DNA of 64,000 nucleotides from Algoriphagus limi (GTDB lineage Bacteria; Bacteroidota; Bacteroidia; Cytophagales; Cyclobacteriaceae). The stretch is from contig NZ_JANWGH010000002.1 in assembly GCF_024919275.1 (NCBI RefSeq), positions 186,001-250,000 of the forward strand, read 5' to 3'. A program made the position numbers and the translations under genes. Below the pieces are notes generated by a model that was not told the origin of the DNA, made no database searches, and worked only from the letters and a program-made list of their open reading frames with translations. Positions 34,422 through 42,370 of the stretch are shown piece after piece (within the stretch, counting starts at the first letter, position 1; each line of letters opens with the position of its first letter).

Positions 34422-35849
34422 ATGAAGAAATTAATTTTTGCTATACTCATCGCTCTTGTAGTGATTGTAACTATTTTATTGATCAACACCTTTCGATTAA
34501 GCTCCAAGCAAGTTGATCCCGAACCCATTGAAAGAGTAGCCATTTCCGATGAGGTTTATCAAAAACTTTCCAAGGCTATCCAATACAAAACCATTTCATT
34601 CAATGAGGATGCAATTCCTGATTCGGCGGAGTTTTTTGGATTCCACCGATTTTTGGAAGAAACATTTCCTCTACTCCATGCAAACCTCAGTTTAGAAAAA
34701 ATCAACACCTACAGTCTCTTGTACAAATGGCAAGGGGCCGATGAATCTCTAAAACCCATCATTCTCATGTCTCATCAGGATGTGGTTCCTGTAGACGAAC
34801 CTACCTTAGAGCAATGGGAAGCAGGCCCTTTTGAAGGGAAAATCACCGATACGCATATCATCGGAAGAGGGACAATGGATGATAAAAGCACCTTGATTGC
34901 AGTGATGGAAGCGATCGAAAAACTCCTGGAGGAAAATTATCAGCCTGCCAGAACGATCTACATTGCTTCAGGTCATGATGAAGAAGTGGGTGGTCCTAAA
35001 GGTGCTGCCAAAATTGCGGAATACCTCAAGTCACAGGGCGTTCAGGCTGCGATGACCATAGACGAGGGCGGTTATATTGCGGAGGGAATGGTTCCCGGTG
35101 TGGAAGCCCCTGTTGCCATGATTAATCTGGGAGAAAAGGGTTTTGCATCCTTCCGATTAATTGTGCGCACCAATGGAGGTCACAGTTCTGCACCTCCCAA
35201 GGAGAACACCATCGGTATCCTTGCAAAAGCCATAGTGGATCTGGAAAACAACCAATTACCCTATAAGCTAATTCCTCCAATTGATTCGCAATTGGAATAC
35301 CTCGGTCCCGAACTTCCCTTCCTGACCAGAGTAGCTTTTGCAAACCCTTGGCTTTTCAAAAAACAACTCTTGGAGGGACTAAATGCACACACCACTACTG
35401 CCCCAACTATCATAGAAGGAGGAGTTAAAAACAATGTAATTCCTACCGTAGCTGAAGCAACCATCAACTTCCGAATCCTTCCGGGAGAAAGCATAGAGAC
35501 CGTTCAAGCTCATATTGAAAGCATTGTGTCAAACAAAGTACAGGTTGAGCCTGTTGGATTTTTGACAAATCCTCCAGCTGTATCTAGTGCTGATTCGGAG
35601 TCTTACAAGATTCTTGAAAAAACCATCCGAAGCATGTTTCCTGAGACAGTTGTCGTACCGGGACTGTTGGGAGGTGCTACTGATTCGCGCTATTTCATCG
35701 ATATTTCTGAGGATGTTTACCGCTTCTATCCTGTTCGACTCGACCCGAAATCCATGGAGCGATTCCATGGGATTGATGAAAAAATCAGCAAGGAGAATTA
35801 CAAGGAGATCATTCAGTTTTCCTATCAATTGATCAAGAACTTCAATTAA
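34422..35849 (+). CDS. M20-family carboxypeptidase (PM20D1/CPS-like), membrane anchored
   Basis: 475 residues with an N-terminal hydrophobic segment (about 4-25). The M20 zinc core is visible: MSHQDVVPVD (first His/Asp), GRGTMDDKSTLIA (bridging Asp), SGHDEEVGGPKGA (general base Glu pair), NGGHSSAPPKENTIG in the lid domain, and the last His in ERFHGIDEKI. This layout resembles PM20D1 and yeast carboxypeptidase S, which cleave or form N-acyl amino acids and small peptides. It probably acts in the periplasm. Confidence 0.88.
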   Translation: MKKLIFAILIALVVIVTILLINTFRLSSKQVDPEPIERVAISDEVYQKLSKAIQYKTISFNEDAIPDSAEFFGFHRFLEETFPLLHANLSLEKINTYSLLYKWQGADESLKPIILMSHQDVVPVDEPTLEQWEAGPFEGKITDTHIIGRGTMDDKSTLIAVMEAIEKLLEENYQPARTIYIASGHDEEVGGPKGAAKIAEYLKSQGVQAAMTIDEGGYIAEGMVPGVEAPVAMINLGEKGFASFRLIVRTNGGHSSAPPKENTIGILAKAIVDLENNQLPYKLIPPIDSQLEYLGPELPFLTRVAFANPWLFKKQLLEGLNAHTTTAPTIIEGGVKNNVIPTVAEATINFRILPGESIETVQAHIESIVSNKVQVEPVGFLTNPPAVSSADSESYKILEKTIRSMFPETVVVPGLLGGATDSRYFIDISEDVYRFYPVRLDPKSMERFHGIDEKISKENYKEIIQFSYQLIKNFN

Positions 35850-35990
35850 TCCACGGAAGCTTATAATCTTTATTTCTCTCTTTTAATCGAATTCATTTAG
35901 TAGGAGCTAATAATTAAAGAATTTTCAGCTTTAAAATACAGCAATCATAAATCTCTTCTTTAGCTCCTTCCACCATTCTTTAATTTTTGA

Positions 35991-36021
35991 ATAGGGGTAA
36001 AAGCGATTTCATTTGTCCTAT
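35991..36021 (+). promoter_or_regulatory. Predicted ECF promoter of the sigma/anti-sigma operon
   Basis: ATAGGGGT (35991-35998), 14-base spacer, TTGTCCTAT (36013-36021). The same two boxes at the identical spacing occur upstream of the outer-membrane repeat gene at 39333-39363 (TTGTCATAT there). An 8-bp inverted repeat, AATAGGGG at 35990-35997 and CCCCTATT at 36030-36037, brackets the region here only. Autoregulation by the adjacent sigma factor is inferred. Confidence 0.7.
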
Positions 36022-36066
36022 CAATAAATCCCCTATTGTGTTAACTTGAAGGAACAATTCATTTCC

Positions 36067-36648
36067 ATGCAGAACATAGATCAGGAGATTTTTAATTCTA
36101 TCAAACTTGGTGACGAGAAAGTTCTGGAAATGTTGTTTCATGAATATTACCAACCACTTTGCCAATATGCTTTCTCCATTCTAAACGATCGGGAGGAGGC
36201 AGAAGAAGTAGTTCAGAATTCCTTTGTTCGAATATGGGAAAAGCGGAAAGATATCTCAATTCAGACTTCTGCCAAAGCCTATTTATATCGTGTAGTTCGA
36301 AATTCCTGTTTGAATGAAATCAAACACCAAAAGGTCAAAATTCAACATCAGGAATGGAGTAAAATGGACAGCGACAGATTGGAATTGGCCTCTGACACTA
36401 TGGCTATTCGAGGTGAACTTGAACAGAAAATCAAAGAAGCCATGCAGAAATTGCCTGAGCAGTGTCGATTGATTTTTTCTTTGAGTCGATTTGAAGAATT
36501 GAAATACAAGGAAATCGCTGATCAACTGAATATTTCCATCAAAACTGTAGAGAATCAAATGGGCAAGGCCCTGAAAATAATGCGTGAAGAACTCAAAGAA
36601 TACCTTCCGCTAATCCTTTTGCTATTGAAAAATTTTCTTGATCCATGA
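36067..36648 (+). CDS. ECF sigma factor, FecI-like (Bacteroidota sigma-70 family)
   Basis: 193 residues. Region 2 is visible in EYYQPLCQYAFSILNDREEAEEVVQNSFVRIWE (about 29-66 overall) and region 4 in LPEQCRLIFSLSRFEELKYKEIADQLNISIKTVENQMGKAL (about 133-180). The ATG at 36067 is chosen over the in-frame TTG at 36046. The predicted ECF promoter ends at 36021, which leaves a plausible leader of about 40 bases. It overlaps the FecR-type gene by four bases (ATGA), the standard sigma/anti-sigma arrangement. Confidence 0.93.
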   Translation: MQNIDQEIFNSIKLGDEKVLEMLFHEYYQPLCQYAFSILNDREEAEEVVQNSFVRIWEKRKDISIQTSAKAYLYRVVRNSCLNEIKHQKVKIQHQEWSKMDSDRLELASDTMAIRGELEQKIKEAMQKLPEQCRLIFSLSRFEELKYKEIADQLNISIKTVENQMGKALKIMREELKEYLPLILLLLKNFLDP

Positions 36649-37619
36649 GCGAAAAAGAAGAATTTGACATAGAGACCCTAATCGCAAAATTCATTACGGA
36701 AGAATGCAATCAGGCTGAAATTGAGCAGCTTGAAAATTGGCGTTCTCAATCCGAAGAAAATGAAAAATATGTGGCAGACGCATTGAAAATTTTTGAGCGT
36801 GCAAAATTTGCTGTTGATGAAAAGTTTGACTCCACGGAAGCTTGGAAAAAAGTCTCAGCAAGAATAGATACCAAACCAAAGGGAGGAACTGCATTCATCG
36901 GCTTCTGGAAAGCAGCAGCAGGTTTAATCCTGATAGCAGCCCTTTCTTATCTTTTCTTTCAGAGTTTGGGCTTAAAAGAAGAATTCAACTTTACGAGTGA
37001 ATCAGAAGTACAAATCCATACCCTACCTGATCAAACCACAATCGCTTTAAACCGTGAATCGGTATCAAAAGTAACGTACAACGAACGAAAGAATACCGGA
37101 ACAATCGAACTAAGTGGTGAGGCTTTGATATCTATTCCTGAGGACAAAAAAGTAATCTGGCAAGTCAAAGTAGAAGAACTTGTCATTGAAGATATTGGAA
37201 CAGAATTCAATGTAAAAGCTTATCCTCAAAGCGACGAAGTGGAAGTTTCTGTTCTTTCCGGAGAAGTTCACATCTACAAGCTTGGCACGGAAGGGATTAA
37301 CATCTCGGCAGGGGAAAAAGCTAGTTTTAATAAGACTACCGGAGAATTTCAGGTCGATGAGGCAGACCGAAATGTCGCTGCCTATCAATCAAAAGTTTTC
37401 TCTTATGAGAATCAGCCCCTTGAGAAAATAGTCACTCAACTAAGCGAGGTCTATCAAATCCCTATTTTTCTTGATGGGGATATCGGCAATTGCACATTGA
37501 CCGTGAATTTTGAAAATGAGGAATTGGAGGAAGTTATTTCCATCATTGCCGAAACTTTGGGATTGGAAATAAGGCAAACGGAAGAGGGAATCACACTTTC
37601 AGGTGAGGGATGCTTTTAG
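36645..37619 (+). CDS. FecR-type anti-sigma factor with DUF4974-like C-terminus
   Basis: 324 residues. The cytoplasmic N-terminal part (1-85) would hold the sigma factor. A membrane segment follows at about 87-108, then a periplasmic FecR domain (about 118-215, LPDQTTIALNRESVSKVTYNE), and a C-terminal STN/DUF4974-like domain (about 245-320, YENQPLEKIVTQLSEVYQIPIFLD). In the known FecIRA scheme the periplasmic part contacts an STN domain of an outer-membrane transducer. Here the next gene, 10 bases on, encodes an STN domain. Confidence 0.92.
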   Translation: MSEKEEFDIETLIAKFITEECNQAEIEQLENWRSQSEENEKYVADALKIFERAKFAVDEKFDSTEAWKKVSARIDTKPKGGTAFIGFWKAAAGLILIAALSYLFFQSLGLKEEFNFTSESEVQIHTLPDQTTIALNRESVSKVTYNERKNTGTIELSGEALISIPEDKKVIWQVKVEELVIEDIGTEFNVKAYPQSDEVEVSVLSGEVHIYKLGTEGINISAGEKASFNKTTGEFQVDEADRNVAAYQSKVFSYENQPLEKIVTQLSEVYQIPIFLDGDIGNCTLTVNFENEELEEVISIIAETLGLEIRQTEEGITLSGEGCF

Positions 37620-37629
37620 ACTTTGATCA

Positions 37630-39285
37630 ATGAGAAAAACCCTTTTTTATATCTCCACTTTTCTCCTTTTCAGCTTTGTCATTCATTCTGAAGAAAATCG
37701 TCTACTGGAAAAGGAAGTAAGTATTCATGTAGAAAATGAACGGTTAGATGACTTTCTAAACAGGCTTTCCCAGGAGGTCGGAGGGATTTTTTCCTACAGC
37801 CCTTCTGCCATTGATATAAGCCAAAGAATTACTGGAGAATTTACCAATAAATCCTGCAGAGAGATTCTTGAAGCAGTCTTCCAGGGAAGAATTAAATACA
37901 AGCAAAAAGGGAATTATATCATTCTTTCGCCCGCCCCTGCTCCTGAAAAAGAAATTACGATTAGCGGATACCTCGTTGATGAAAGTTCAGGAGAAAGAAT
38001 ACGAAACGCTACAGTTTATGACCCCATCACGCTCAAATCCTCTACGACTGATGAGTTTGGGTTCTTCGAAATTGCTTTAAAAAATCCCACAGGCGAAGAT
38101 TTTGAATTGATCATCAATCAGGAGAGATATACTGATACACTTCTGGTGGATCAAAAACGGTCTTCATTTAAACGGATTTTTCTGAGGAAAGAGACTGCCG
38201 AGACGCTTACCAAACCAATGAAGGATTTTCTCCTATGGGCTAAAGAATCGATCGGAGTCAAAAACAGTAAAAACGTAAGGGACACACTTACACGTAAATT
38301 CCAGTTTTCAATAGTGCCTTTTGTGGGCACCAATCAAAAACTTTCCGGAAGTGTGGTAAATGACTATTCCATCAATCTGTTTGGAGGCTATTCCGCTGGA
38401 ACCAATAAACTCGAGCTTGGAGGTTTGTTTAATTTAGATCGGGGTCAGGTCAGTGGAATCCAAATAGCAGGGCTCATAAATCAGGTGGGTGGATCAGTAA
38501 AAGGTTTTCAAATTGCCGGATTAGCAAATGTAAACTTAGATTCATTATCGGGATTTCAGGGTGCAGGTCTTACCAATTTTACGCTTCGAGATGTCAAGGG
38601 AGTTCAAGCTTCGCCATTATTGAATATTTCCGGAGGAAGTATAAATGGCTTTCAGGCCTCTGTTTTAGCAAACTATACCCACAAACATGTCAAAGGAGTT
38701 CAGGCTGGCATCCTAGGAAATATAGCAGGAGGATATGTGGAAGGATTTCAATTTGGCCTTTTCAATTATGCTGATAGTGTCAAGGGAGCTTCCATTGGTT
38801 TATTGAGTTTTGTAAGAAAAGGATACCATACCATAGAAATTGGCGCTGATGAAATTTATCCATTGAACATTGGTCTGCGAACGGGAACGAGAGGGTTTTA
38901 TAATATCCTTTCTGCAGGCATCCGCCCCGAAAAGGCTGATTCTACAACATGGTCATTTGGATATGGAATAGGTACCTCCCCAAGGCTAGGGAAAAAGACC
39001 TATCTCAATTTTGAATTGAACACATCCCAAATGAATAAAGGGAAAGTGCTCGCTACGAATCTAATCAACCGCATATATCTAGGATTTGACTATCAGGTAG
39101 CCAAAGGAGTAGCCTTATATGGAGGACCTTCTTTCAACATTCGGATTTTTGATACCAGTTTTGATGATCACCCAGAAACATTTGCTTATTCTGCTCCAAG
39201 AGTTTTTGGTAGAAAAAGCATTGAAAACCTGAATCTGGGACAGGAAATTTGGTGGGGATTCAGGGCAGGAATTCGCTTTTTTTAG
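37630..39285 (+). CDS. STN-domain outer-membrane protein with 16-residue repeats (LA_2272-like), no TonB receptor barrel
   Basis: 551 residues. A signal peptide (about 1-20) is followed by an STN domain (about 28-104, VSIHVENERLDDFLNRLSQ) and a CarboxypepD_reg-like beta domain (about 108-178, ITISGYLVDESSGERIRNAT). After a linker comes a region with about eight 16-residue repeats of the form AGLxNxxxxxVxGxQx (about 255-385). The C-terminus looks like outer-membrane beta strands and ends in Phe (GIRFF). STN plus a CarboxypepD_reg-like domain normally precede a TonB-dependent receptor plug and barrel; neither is present. By position it is the expected signal partner of the FecR-type protein. 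Confidence 0.75.
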   Translation: MRKTLFYISTFLLFSFVIHSEENRLLEKEVSIHVENERLDDFLNRLSQEVGGIFSYSPSAIDISQRITGEFTNKSCREILEAVFQGRIKYKQKGNYIILSPAPAPEKEITISGYLVDESSGERIRNATVYDPITLKSSTTDEFGFFEIALKNPTGEDFELIINQERYTDTLLVDQKRSSFKRIFLRKETAETLTKPMKDFLLWAKESIGVKNSKNVRDTLTRKFQFSIVPFVGTNQKLSGSVVNDYSINLFGGYSAGTNKLELGGLFNLDRGQVSGIQIAGLINQVGGSVKGFQIAGLANVNLDSLSGFQGAGLTNFTLRDVKGVQASPLLNISGGSINGFQASVLANYTHKHVKGVQAGILGNIAGGYVEGFQFGLFNYADSVKGASIGLLSFVRKGYHTIEIGADEIYPLNIGLRTGTRGFYNILSAGIRPEKADSTTWSFGYGIGTSPRLGKKTYLNFELNTSQMNKGKVLATNLINRIYLGFDYQVAKGVALYGGPSFNIRIFDTSFDDHPETFAYSAPRVFGRKSIENLNLGQEIWWGFRAGIRFF

Positions 39286-39332
39286 GCTTCAGGGAAGGAT
39301 TTTACATTTTTTCAAAAAATTTTGAATCTCTC

Positions 39333-39363
39333 ATAGGGGTTAGGGCTTCTTCGCTTGTCATAT
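39333..39363 (+). promoter_or_regulatory. Second predicted ECF promoter, upstream of the repeat-protein paralogue
   Basis: ATAGGGGT (39333-39340), 14-base spacer, TTGTCATAT (39355-39363). Boxes and spacing match the site at 35991-36021. The following ATG at 39385 leaves a leader of about 15 bases. Confidence 0.7.
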
Positions 39364-39384
39364 AGGCGAAACAAACCTAAACCA

Positions 39385-40524
39385 ATGAAAAATTTAAAAT
39401 TGATTATTGCTGTAATCTTCCTTTTTGCCTTGAATCCCCTCCAAGCTCAAACAGAAAAGGAAGAAAATTCTAAGGTGTATTTCCACCAAGATTTCCAGAT
39501 TTCATTTGTCCCTTTTGTCGGTACCAATGGAATCAACTCAGGGATTACCATCAATGACTACTCTATCAATGTATTAGGAGGATTTTCTGCCGGTGCCAAC
39601 AAGTTGGAATTGGCTGGATTATTCAATATCAATCGGAGCGATGTGAGTTATGCCCAGTTTGCAGGTGTTTTTAACCAAGTAAATGGCAAGGTGAAAGGAG
39701 CTCAATTCGCAGGAGTAATCAACTCAAACTTGGATTCCGTTGATGGCTTTCAAGCAGCAGGTGTAACAAATTTCACGACCGGGTCGGTAAAGGGAGCTCA
39801 ACTTGCAGGGGTTATCAATTTAACCACAAAAAGTGTAGAAGGGTTTCAAGGAGCTGGAGTGATGAACTTTGCCGTTGGAAGCTTGAAAGGAACTCAACTT
39901 GCTGGAGTTAGTAACTTTTCTATCGGCGATGTAAATGGCACACAGGTCAGTGGCGTCCTCAATTTTGCCAGAAAGGTAAACGGAGCGCAAATTGCCCTTT
40001 TTAACTATGCTGACAGTATCGCTGGAGTTCCCATCGGGTTGATAAGCGTAGTGAAATCAGGTTACCATACGCTGGAGCTTAGCACAAATGAAGTTATGCC
40101 TTTCAATATGGCATGGCGAACAGGTGTCAGACCTTTCTACAATATTCTCTATGCGGGTATACGACCAGAAATTGATGACGAGGTTACTTGGTCCTTTGGA
40201 TATGGTATCGGTACCTCACCAAGGCTAGGGAACAAGATTTTCTTGAATATAGAAGCAACCTCAGAGCAAGTAAGCAAGGGAGAGGTGGTCGACCTAAACT
40301 TGATCAATAGAATTTATCTAGGCTTTGAATATCAAATCAGTTCTAAAATTGCTGTTTTCGGTGGACCTACTATGAACTTCCGAGTATTTGAAACAGGTAT
40401 TGAAAACCATCCCAAGCTCTTTGCTTATGGAGATCCAAAAATCCGTCATGAACGAACTTATGATAATGGAAATATTGGCAGTCAATTCTGGTATGGAATG
40501 AAAGCCGGTATCCGATTCTTTTAA
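39385..40524 (+). CDS. Outer-membrane 16-residue-repeat protein (LA_2272-like), paralogue without STN domain
   Basis: 379 residues with a signal peptide cleaved after about LQAQ. The mature part matches the C-terminal half of the STN protein upstream: FVPFVGTNGINSG, then 8-9 repeats of AGVxNxxxxxVxGxQx, TWSFGYGIGTSPRLGNK and a Phe-ending strand GIRFF. I take the ATG at 39385. An in-frame TTG at 39355 lies inside the predicted -10 box and cannot be the start if that promoter is real. Function unknown; probably a surface protein induced by the sigma factor. Confidence 0.75.
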   Translation: MKNLKLIIAVIFLFALNPLQAQTEKEENSKVYFHQDFQISFVPFVGTNGINSGITINDYSINVLGGFSAGANKLELAGLFNINRSDVSYAQFAGVFNQVNGKVKGAQFAGVINSNLDSVDGFQAAGVTNFTTGSVKGAQLAGVINLTTKSVEGFQGAGVMNFAVGSLKGTQLAGVSNFSIGDVNGTQVSGVLNFARKVNGAQIALFNYADSIAGVPIGLISVVKSGYHTLELSTNEVMPFNMAWRTGVRPFYNILYAGIRPEIDDEVTWSFGYGIGTSPRLGNKIFLNIEATSEQVSKGEVVDLNLINRIYLGFEYQISSKIAVFGGPTMNFRVFETGIENHPKLFAYGDPKIRHERTYDNGNIGSQFWYGMKAGIRFF

Positions 40525-40544
40525 AAAACTAAACCCCAAAAACT

Positions 40545-41198
40545 ATGAAAAACTACATCTTTAAAACCAGTCTTTTCCTCATCGGCTTTTCCATGCTAAT
40601 GGGCTGCGATTTGACCAATGATTTCTTAGGTTCTGAGGATCTCGTCACTATCGAAAGAGATCTCAATTCTTTCCAAAATATTATCGCAGGAGAAAACATA
40701 ACAGTGAAAATCACACAGGGTCCAATTCAGCAGATTTTGGCGACTACCAATACAAATATGACTGAGAACCTAATCACAAAAGTAGAAGACAATACGCTTA
40801 AAATCTCCCTGAAGAATGGTTCTTACAAAAACTCCACCTTCATCTTGGATATTCAGATTCCAGATTTAAAAAAGCTCAAGTTCAAAGATGCTGCGGAAGG
40901 GGAATTATTTATGATCTCCGATATGCTATCAATAGAAATGCAGGATGCGAGCAAACTTAATTTGAATGGCAATTCCAGTATCCTCAATATCGAACTTTCA
41001 GATGCAAGTAAACTATTTGGCTTCGGCTTCCTTGCGAACACAGCCAATGTTAGCTTAAAAGATGCTTCCAAGCTTGAAATTGAAGTCTTGGATATTCTGC
41101 AGGGAAAAGCTTCAGATGCAGCCAAAATTATTTATAAGGGAAATCCTATAATTGATATTAATACCAAAGACGCCGCCAAAGTGATCAAGGAAAACTAG
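40545..41198 (+). CDS. DUF2807 (GIN-domain) lipoprotein
   Basis: 217 residues. The lipobox is LMGC (Cys about 21). The body is a repetitive beta domain with recurring Asp-Ala-Ser-Lys (MQDASKLNL, SDASKLFGF, KDASKLEIE) and related KDAAE/DAAK turns, typical of the DUF2807 putative auto-transporter adhesin-like head domain. Twenty bases after the repeat-protein gene, so probably co-transcribed from the second ECF promoter. Role unknown. Confidence 0.85.
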   Translation: MKNYIFKTSLFLIGFSMLMGCDLTNDFLGSEDLVTIERDLNSFQNIIAGENITVKITQGPIQQILATTNTNMTENLITKVEDNTLKISLKNGSYKNSTFILDIQIPDLKKLKFKDAAEGELFMISDMLSIEMQDASKLNLNGNSSILNIELSDASKLFGFGFLANTANVSLKDASKLEIEVLDILQGKASDAAKIIYKGNPIIDINTKDAAKVIKEN

Positions 41199-41224
41199 GC
41201 TACCTTCTGGGAAAAGTAAACTTT

Positions 41225-41256
41225 AAAGGCGTGGGTTTTTCCACGCCTTTCTGCTT
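41225..41256 (+). terminator. Terminator closing the ECF-regulated locus
   Basis: 10-bp perfect stem AAAGGCGTGG (41225-41234) with CCACGCCTTT (41241-41250) and a 6-base loop. The following tract is only partly T-rich. Confidence 0.82.
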
Positions 41257-41326
41257 TTTCATTACCTCTTTTGTTGTTGAAAAATAGAATGAAAGTATAT
41301 TGTCCTTTCCTAAACTTTCCAGCCTT

Positions 41327-42370
41327 ATGAAGAAAATCGCCCTATTTGTACTAATCCTGATAGTAGGATTGATAGCATTTATCTTTCACACTTTTTCTTC
41401 CACAGGGTATTTTCGAGATATTGAACCCAAACATGATTTTGGGGAAATATTCCAAACCATTAATCTTCCGGGAGTGGAGGATATGGCATTGGCAAGAAAG
41501 GACAGCTTTCTGATTTTGTCAGTAGATGACCGAGCAAAAAGAAGAGCTGGAGAAGAAGGTTTGCATGGGCTTTATTGGTTGGATTTGAGGCAAACTCCCT
41601 TTGAAACAAAAGCAATCCCACTTCCGACTAATTTGACACTCTTTCCTCATGGAATCAGTCTTTTTGAAATAGGCCCAAATCAATATCAACTGGCAGTTAT
41701 CAACCATGTGGAAGGGAAGCATTCCATTGAACTTTTCACTATTCAGGATAGCGAAGTACTATACGATCGAACACTTCGGGATCCACTACTCATCTCTCCC
41801 AATGATTTGGTTTTGGTAGGCAAAGACAAATTCTATTATTCCAATGATCATGGAAATACATCAAAATTGGGGGTATTTGCCGAAAACTATTTGGGTGTGG
41901 CTGCTGCCAATGTGGGTTATTTTGATGGAGAAAATTTCCGAATTGTAGCGGAAGATTTAGCCTATCCCAATGGACTTGTTCCTGACCAATCCGGAGAAAA
42001 ATTATTTGTAGCCTCCTCTCGAGGATTCCTGATTCGGGCGTATGACATTCAGAGAAATGGGGATTTGACGAGGTCAGAGGATATTTCAGTTGATACGGGC
42101 GTAGACAATTTAGAAATCGATGATTCGGGCACTATATGGACTGGCGCACATCCTGATTTGATGACCTTTTCAGCCTATGCAGCAGGCAAAAAAGAATTTG
42201 CTCCTTCTGAGATTTTGAAAATTTCATATAACGAGGGCCAATCAAAAATTGAATCCGTTTGGCTCGATGATGGGAAAACACTTTCTGCTACTTCTGTCGC
42301 CATTCCTTTTGGAGACTATTTGTTTTTGGGAAATGTCATGGACTCAAAGTTTTTGGTCCTGAAAAAGTAA
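41327..42370 (+). CDS. Paraoxonase-like (PON/SMP-30 type) beta-propeller esterase or lactonase
   Basis: 347 residues with an N-terminal membrane or signal segment (about 2-20). The six-bladed propeller shows the calcium-ligand patterns of PON1: GVEDMAL (Glu-Asp), SPNDLVLVGKDKFYYSNDHG (Asn-Asp), YPNGLVPD (Asn) and TGVDNLEID (Asp-Asn). PON relatives hydrolyse lactones and aryl esters. The ATG at 41327 is preferred over an in-frame TTG at 41300 because it gives a clean signal segment. Convergent with the AraC gene, one base apart. Confidence 0.75.
   Translation: MKKIALFVLILIVGLIAFIFHTFSSTGYFRDIEPKHDFGEIFQTINLPGVEDMALARKDSFLILSVDDRAKRRAGEEGLHGLYWLDLRQTPFETKAIPLPTNLTLFPHGISLFEIGPNQYQLAVINHVEGKHSIELFTIQDSEVLYDRTLRDPLLISPNDLVLVGKDKFYYSNDHGNTSKLGVFAENYLGVAAANVGYFDGENFRIVAEDLAYPNGLVPDQSGEKLFVASSRGFLIRAYDIQRNGDLTRSEDISVDTGVDNLEIDDSGTIWTGAHPDLMTFSAYAAGKKEFAPSEILKISYNEGQSKIESVWLDDGKTLSATSVAIPFGDYLFLGNVMDSKFLVLKK

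Follow-up and report, generated by a model that had tools for sequence, protein, structure and literature searches.

Textbook FecI/FecR signalling couples gene control to a transporter. In Fox- and Pup-type signalling, the STN domain binds the tail of FecR, and a change in the outer-membrane (OM) protein exposes the anti-sigma factor to proteolysis (PMC11637429). Here, we describe a FecI/FecR-type cluster in a 64,000-nucleotide stretch of the Algoriphagus limi genome (contig NZ_JANWGH010000002.1, positions 186,001 to 250,000; hereafter, the window), in which the STN domain belongs to a 551-residue protein with 16-residue repeats and a predicted barrel. The source of the window is closely related to the marine species Algoriphagus kandeliae, which has these genes in the same order and whose counterpart of this protein is 95% identical. 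We consider it likely, with a probability of about 70%, that this protein, composed of an STN domain, a transthyretin-like (TTR) domain and a repeat barrel, is a transducer that informs the FecR-type protein of the state of the OM or of a surface ligand, with predicted release of the sigma factor onto promoters of the form TAGGGGTAA-N13-TTGTC.

Results

The STN protein lacks recognisable TonB plug and barrel domains

The five genes of the cluster all lie on the + strand of the window, between 35992 and 41250, with the following features (window coordinates; nt, nucleotides; ECF, extracytoplasmic function).

35992–36017, + strand: predicted promoter of the ECF type with the sequence TAGGGGTA-N13-TTGTC, 75 nt upstream of the sigma gene's ATG; kept before the ECF genes of relatives
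36067–36648, + strand: ECF sigma factor, 193 residues from the ATG (Sigma70_r2, r4_2, TIGR02985)
36645–37619, + strand: FecR-type anti-sigma factor, with a cytoplasmic part, a membrane segment, a FecR domain with Gly185-Thr186 and an STN-like FecR_C tail
37630–39285, + strand: 551-residue STN-TTR-repeat-barrel protein, predicted OM transducer (profiles, alignment, model, fold match)
37714–37932, + strand: STN signalling domain, residues 29–101 of the model (Pfam and Foldseek)
37951–38184, + strand: TTR-like (CarboxypepD_reg-like) domain, residues 108–185
38413–38769, + strand: repeat region, approximately residues 262–380, recurring every 16 residues with GxQ and N conserved
38815–39282, + strand: C-terminal predicted 8-strand OM barrel, residues 396–551
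39334–39359, + strand: second motif copy, 51 nt upstream of the paralogue's ATG
39385–40524, + strand: STN-less paralogue, 379 residues, with predicted signal peptide, repeats and barrel; 53–59% identity to the 551-residue protein
40545–41198, + strand: DUF2807/GIN (Toastrack) protein with a lipobox-like MLMGC (PF10988)
41225–41250, + strand: terminator-like hairpin closing the unit, a weak sign alone (one such site in 35800–41400, against a mean of 5.0 in shuffled sequences)

A preliminary description of this DNA had proposed the same five-gene layout, which is borne out by the open reading frames and profiles on the + strand, and its starting point for the locus, 35991, lies one base ahead of the first promoter motif. 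The first three genes overlap or nearly touch at their ends, suggesting that they form one transcript. In a sigma-70 promoter scan of the locus, matches were no commoner than expected by chance.

The first protein contains Sigma70_r2 and r4_2 and matches TIGR02985 with 177 bits (cut-off, 126). To judge from the sequence, its gene is likely to start at the ATG at 36067 (193 residues) and not at the TTG at 36046 (200 residues), in line with the 192–193 residues of many orthologues. The second protein matches PF04773 and PF16344 (FecR_C, formerly DUF4974), both above the cut-off, has a membrane segment at approximately residues 90–108, and carries the Gly-Thr pair of FecR self-cleavage, which is present in 77 of 77 aligned FecR rows. 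The domain models thus agree with the earlier assignment of an ECF sigma factor and a FecR-type anti-sigma factor with a membrane segment, a FecR domain and a DUF4974-like tail.

The 551-residue protein matches STN (PF07660) with 33.0 bits (cut-off, 28.4), and a Foldseek search matched the PupA signalling domain (2a02) with a probability of 1.00 and an E value of 0.07, with nothing returned at E ≤ 0.001. Neither the TonB Plug model (PF07715) nor the barrel model (PF00593) matched the protein at E ≤ 1, whereas the same profile library found Plug and TonB barrel above the cut-off in the true STN receptor of the genome, which served as a positive control. These hidden Markov model searches uphold the original proposal that the STN domain is not carried by a recognisable TonB-dependent receptor, and we rejected a degenerate TonB-dependent receptor on the same grounds. 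A typical iron or SusCD system was also rejected, as no such gene was found among the five scanned. The CarboxypepD_reg-like domain that had been proposed is supported by the fold and not by the profile, for which CarbopepD_reg_2 scored below the cut-off (25.0 against 32.2 bits).

Seven 16-residue repeats are followed by the predicted 8-strand barrel. In an alignment of the family with 67 rows, from 120 listed among 699 homologues, five of the repeat Gln residues (278, 294, 326, 358, and 374) are invariant and two others (310 and 342) are conserved in at least 90% of the rows, the spacing between neighbouring positions being exactly 16 residues. The protein ends in Phe, and its modelled residues 396–551 match 8-strand OM barrels, so that the repeats and the Phe-ended, barrel-like C-terminus were both read correctly from the sequence at the outset. 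The model puts the repeats before the barrel, and surface exposure of the repeats is therefore not required; sensing may nevertheless proceed through the repeat domain. A sequence search of the PDB with the family profile gave 0 matches. Membership of LA_2272 (NF047436) was rejected, as the score of 19.3 bits is below the cut-off of 25.

At five loci (L031, L072, L076, L079, and L082), two open frames take the place of a single STN gene, by real mutation or assembly error. Two relatives of the repeat barrel, P0169 and P0234, are listed with the caspase-type peptidase domain PF00656.

Linkage to sigma and anti-sigma genes follows the STN domain

The genomes were scanned with the family alignment, the presence of sigma or FecR genes being no criterion, and the best 80 of 95 confirmed stretches gave 79 distinct loci, mostly from Cytophagales. 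At 75 of the 79 loci, which are all those with upstream DNA, the gene is immediately preceded on its own strand by ECF and FecR genes; three of the remaining four begin at a contig end, and in L079 the FecR gene is cut there. This neighbourhood survey demonstrates the conserved linkage of the architecture to sigma/FecR genes on which the preliminary description had staked its interpretation.

A further 20 loci, many of them from other families, contained STN in 19, FecR in 19, and ECF in 18; the single locus without FecR, L200 of Flexibacter flexilis, is also without STN. In contrast, a six-frame search of 7–10 kb around STN-less repeat barrels in other Bacteroidota genomes found ECF or FecR genes at 0 of 18 hand-picked loci. 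The 20 loci and the stretches for the STN-less set, of which 18 of 20 were used, were chosen by eye, on open-frame length and coverage. Since STN-less barrels are unlinked and STN loci are linked, the connection to sigma control follows the STN domain, or a Dma-like fusion, and we rejected the idea that linkage comes with the barrel itself. The STN repeat-barrel system was found in several Bacteroidota families.

A shared promoter-like motif suggests a regulon

The full motif, TAGGGGTAA-N13-TTGTC, precedes both the sigma gene and the paralogue, which suggests autoregulation of the sigma operon. Its two blocks stand 13 nt apart, mostly approximately 50–90 nt before start codons. Among dyads, GGGG-N16-TGTC was the best, occurring in 43 of 57 non-redundant ECF upstream regions, as compared with at most 10 for any dyad in 10 shuffles.

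A relaxed pattern gave 126 matches in the 79 loci (1.28 Mb), all on the operon strand, and 123 of them are found no more than 350 nt ahead of genes belonging to the system, namely ECF genes (55), the paralogue (28, from 30 paralogue-bearing loci), the TonB-dependent receptor described below (18, two of them fragments), PagL-like genes (12), and GIN/DUF2807 genes (10; six of the upstream and four of the downstream type). Alignment A2 omits the paralogue of L008.

In the window genome, the exact pattern TAGGGGT-N14-TTGTC matched twice, at 35992 (sigma gene) and 39334 (paralogue), and both of the further matches obtained with one mismatch lie inside open reading frames; the sites of the sigma gene and the paralogue are the only intergenic copies at up to one mismatch. 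The guess that the locus controls the downstream paralogue and the DUF2807 lipoprotein thereby gains support, as a motif shared by the sigma gene and the paralogue–DUF2807 unit would fit such control. With its repeats, barrel and motif and no STN domain, the paralogue is likely to act as an effector or, in feedback, to compete for the ligand or OM partner of the 551-residue protein.

Counts within the genus cover 48 of 78 genomes, the window's own included, the other 30 being from other families of the order. The 16 genomes with the full-length protein (E < 1e-200) held 41 exact matches (reversed control, 20), whereas the 32 genomes without it held 3 (reversed control, 31); genomes less than 90% complete make up 2 of the 16 and 11 of the 32, and 7 of the 32 hold a second subfamily. 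Two of the matches counted, those of G334, share coordinates with matches of G012 inside open reading frames.

Across 17 genomes, 76 exact matches were obtained, as compared with 18 for the reversed control. Leaving out the match before the G001 receptor, 58 of 75 distinct instances lie within 260 nt before a reference family: ECF (13), receptor (11; eight of the cluster's family and three of a second family), GIN (10), a 220-residue predicted OM protein (10), the STN-less repeat protein (6), PAP2 (5, one of which, L178, is AraC-like by Pfam), LiaG-like (2), and PagL-like (1). The reference families were taken in part from motif matches, and with the 8 self-matches removed the count is 50 of 67.

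Motif-led genes point towards the envelope

The DUF2807 lipoprotein of the window matches PF10988 with 76.1 bits (cut-off, 24.2). In relatives, the motif precedes genes for GIN or LiaG-like (DUF4097) proteins, PAP2 phosphatases, PagL/OmpW-like proteins, and predicted OM proteins of approximately 220 residues. We lean towards the view that these genes point to envelope upkeep. DUF2807 and DUF4097 have been unified as Toastrack, a partner of phage-shock membrane-stress systems (PMC11237479).

The barrel may accordingly be a sentinel whose state changes on OM misassembly or damage, triggering a protective regulon of Toastrack lipoproteins, PAP2 proteins resembling lipid A or undecaprenyl phosphatases, and a PagL-like barrel. 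Dma anti-sigma factors connect OM barrels with ECF factors in a comparable way. The motif-led GIN/DUF2807, DUF4097/LiaG-like and PAP2 genes (one of the latter with weak LpxE similarity), the place of Toastrack beside the phage-shock systems, and the existence of a Dma-like protein that contains this repeat barrel are all consistent with sensing of this kind. However, PagL was just above the cut-off in one of three scanned proteins and below it in two, the LpxE similarity is far below the LpxE cut-off, and a dedicated receptor gene would not be expected in a pure stress response. Envelope-stress sensing is the branch that we favour within the explanation given at the outset, and we hold it tentatively, at somewhat short of even odds.

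Motif-led PAP2 phosphatases occur at L149, L154, L155, and L134; that of L149, the one with weak similarity to LpxE, begins with a short TTR stretch like that of a receptor. The motif-led family of approximately 212–231 residues, with signal-peptide-like starts and one weak OMP_b-brl match, is found at L136–L139, L150, L168, L170, L173, L175, and L118, and a search for this 220-residue family in the window genome, run without a positive control, was empty. At L161 and L165, a gene that by eye resembles a FAD monooxygenase lies 196–197 nt behind an exact motif.

TonB-dependent receptors are encoded separately

A TonB-dependent receptor of approximately 781 residues, forming one BLAST cluster, is present on the same strand in the fetched flanks of 37 of the 79 loci, and the three members scanned contain TTR, match Plug weakly and lack STN. 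The suggestion that the locus senses without transport would fit the 551-residue protein, which has no TonB-dependent receptor match, and does not extend to the system as a whole. More distant homologues of the receptor (36–42% identity) occur in G001, G003, G005, and G006, where five genes located away from the STN gene, two of them in G006, have the exact motif ahead. A second motif-led receptor family was found at L148, L152, and L169.

In L006, the closest relative with the receptor, the receptor gene lies between the paralogue and the DUF2807 gene. No receptor orthologue was found in the window genome, in which the best match has 29% identity (27% in the genomes of L004 and L007). We read this as loss of the receptor in the window's clade, a gain in L006 being the alternative. 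Sensing and transport are thus likely to be split between two proteins, the window strain keeping the sensor without the receptor.

A nutrient signal is also conceivable, given the optional receptor. The STN protein could be a signalling half that has become detached from a TonB-dependent uptake system. It would respond to the substrate of the STN-less receptor, perhaps while bound to that receptor, and the window strain would then hold a remnant that has lost the receptor. The same-strand receptors at 37 loci, the 18 motif-led cases, the distant motif-led receptors in four genomes, the STN-less make-up of the scanned members, and the second motif-led family would all fit such a role in uptake. 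Nevertheless, the window's clade keeps the sensor, the paralogue, and the DUF2807 gene intact without any receptor, and the other motif-led genes encode GIN/LiaG, PAP2, and small predicted OM proteins, among which no uptake enzyme was noticed. We regard a nutrient-uptake role as rather unlikely.

Discussion

The signalling mechanism that we propose starts with the STN domain touching the STN-like tail on the FecR-type protein, by analogy with the Fox and Pup systems. Changes in the repeats and barrel would alter this contact; the FecR-type protein, with its invariant Gly-Thr pair, would then be cut, and the sigma factor would be freed. The freed sigma factor would act on the common motif, and its predicted targets are the sigma-fecR-stn and paralogue-DUF2807 units here and, in relatives, also the STN-less TonB-dependent receptors and envelope genes.

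Several observations weigh against this interpretation. Because the pattern was derived from the DNA upstream of ECF genes, the 55 ECF matches are not independent and only the 68 non-ECF matches count as independent support. Moreover, 20 of 75 ECF genes have no assigned match (6 of these 20 have the motif before an upstream GIN gene), 17 of the 75 exact instances lie before no reference family, and the best receptor homologue in G002, G004, G007, and G008 is without the exact motif. In the genome of L007, the exact pattern occurs only inside open reading frames, and the L007 promoters fit the relaxed pattern. At up to two mismatches, the window genome gave 72 matches as compared with 177 for the reversed control, so that the motif exceeds chance no longer, and weaker targets are possible among the 68 two-mismatch matches. 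A second subfamily of the same genus (L183–L186) has the core genes without the TAGGGGT motif. The fold of the repeats is uncertain, the AlphaFold model of the paralogue being poor (pLDDT 67, with disagreement between models). Finally, a 918-residue TonB-dependent receptor with STN, which has no FecR gene adjacent, might also address the only FecR of the genome.

The core of the second subfamily consists of the repeat protein, ECF, FecR, and the STN protein, with a LiaG-like gene on the opposite strand in three of four loci.

The motif might instead be the site of another regulator, with the ECF factor acting elsewhere. This is improbable, given the two blocks 13 nt apart, mostly approximately 50–90 nt before start codons, and the occurrence of the motif with the system, its exact pattern being nearly absent from same-genus genomes without the system.

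The FecR-type gene of the locus is the only PF04773 match found in the window genome, which makes the adjacent 551-residue protein or, less likely, the 918-residue receptor (G000:C3:447481, L182), the only other STN match in that genome, the partner of its product. That the 918-residue receptor, with TTR, Plug and barrel above the cut-off (601 residues scanned) and no adjacent FecR, is the real partner and the 551-residue protein a competitor or decoy is very improbable, since its STN match is below the cut-off and the 551-residue type is linked to FecR at every locus with upstream DNA.

If the transducer reading is correct, this locus represents split cell-surface signalling, with transport, where kept, on another protein. 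In each of the 75 relatives whose upstream DNA is covered, a sigma/anti-sigma pair is tied to a protein without signs of a transporter. The conserved motif hints at a likely regulon, with two units in the window genome, and suggests a role for two orphan families, the LA_2272-like repeats and GIN/DUF2807. The locus would also provide a small, testable system for how Bacteroidota monitor the OM, alongside the recently described Dma factors. It is possible, although we would put it below an even chance, that the Bacteroidota 16-residue-repeat barrel is a modular OM sensor, joined to ECF circuits via STN and FecR or via a Dma-like fusion (Flexibacter), which senses the OM itself and commands a dedicated envelope regulon, with the STN-less receptor as no more than an optional target, so that surface signalling would be uncoupled from transport.

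Comparison with known systems

In searches of titles and abstract openings, with subscription journals and preprints mostly outside their reach, we found no published description of a repeat-barrel protein that bears an STN domain while the receptor is a separate protein. The LA_2272 surface-repeat and VC2662 families share a similar repeat and give weak matches, which are below both curated cut-offs, and the STN-TTR half lies outside those matches. The motif-led lipoprotein is a clear member of DUF2807 (GIN, Toastrack), of which the adhesin PGN_1547 is an example (PMC10949514).

Like FecI/FecR/FecA (Fox, Pup), the locus combines an ECF sigma factor, a FecR-type protein with an STN-like tail and a Gly-Thr site, and a partner with an N-terminal STN domain (PMC11637429, PMC9249621). 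In contrast to those systems, the transducer here has no plug or TonB-dependent barrel, and the receptor, if present, is separate and STN-less.

In the PUMA3 system of Pseudomonas aeruginosa (VreA/VreI/VreR), the STN partner is likewise not a TonB-dependent receptor (PMC2729926). VreA, however, has no barrel, is mostly soluble, and carries a TolA/TonB-like end domain (PMC2729926), whereas the protein here has a predicted OM barrel with repeats; the gene order also differs, and the motif suggests autoregulation.

In Dma factors, an OM barrel domain also takes part in ECF control, within one polypeptide that reaches from the cytosol to the OM (PMC13088901), whereas here the anti-sigma factor and the OM protein are separate and would meet via the STN domain. 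In L200, a predicted inner-membrane helix and then a long tether precede the repeat barrel, and the gene overlaps the ECF gene, which is the Dma layout in outline (PMC13088901); a predicted single-pass inner-membrane N-terminus, a tether and a repeat barrel are combined in L200:4241-6190 (P0121) and also in P0122 and P0158. An STN partner without a receptor barrel (VreA) and an OM-barrel anti-sigma factor (Dma) are thus already known, and the present locus is a new form of FecI/FecR signalling.

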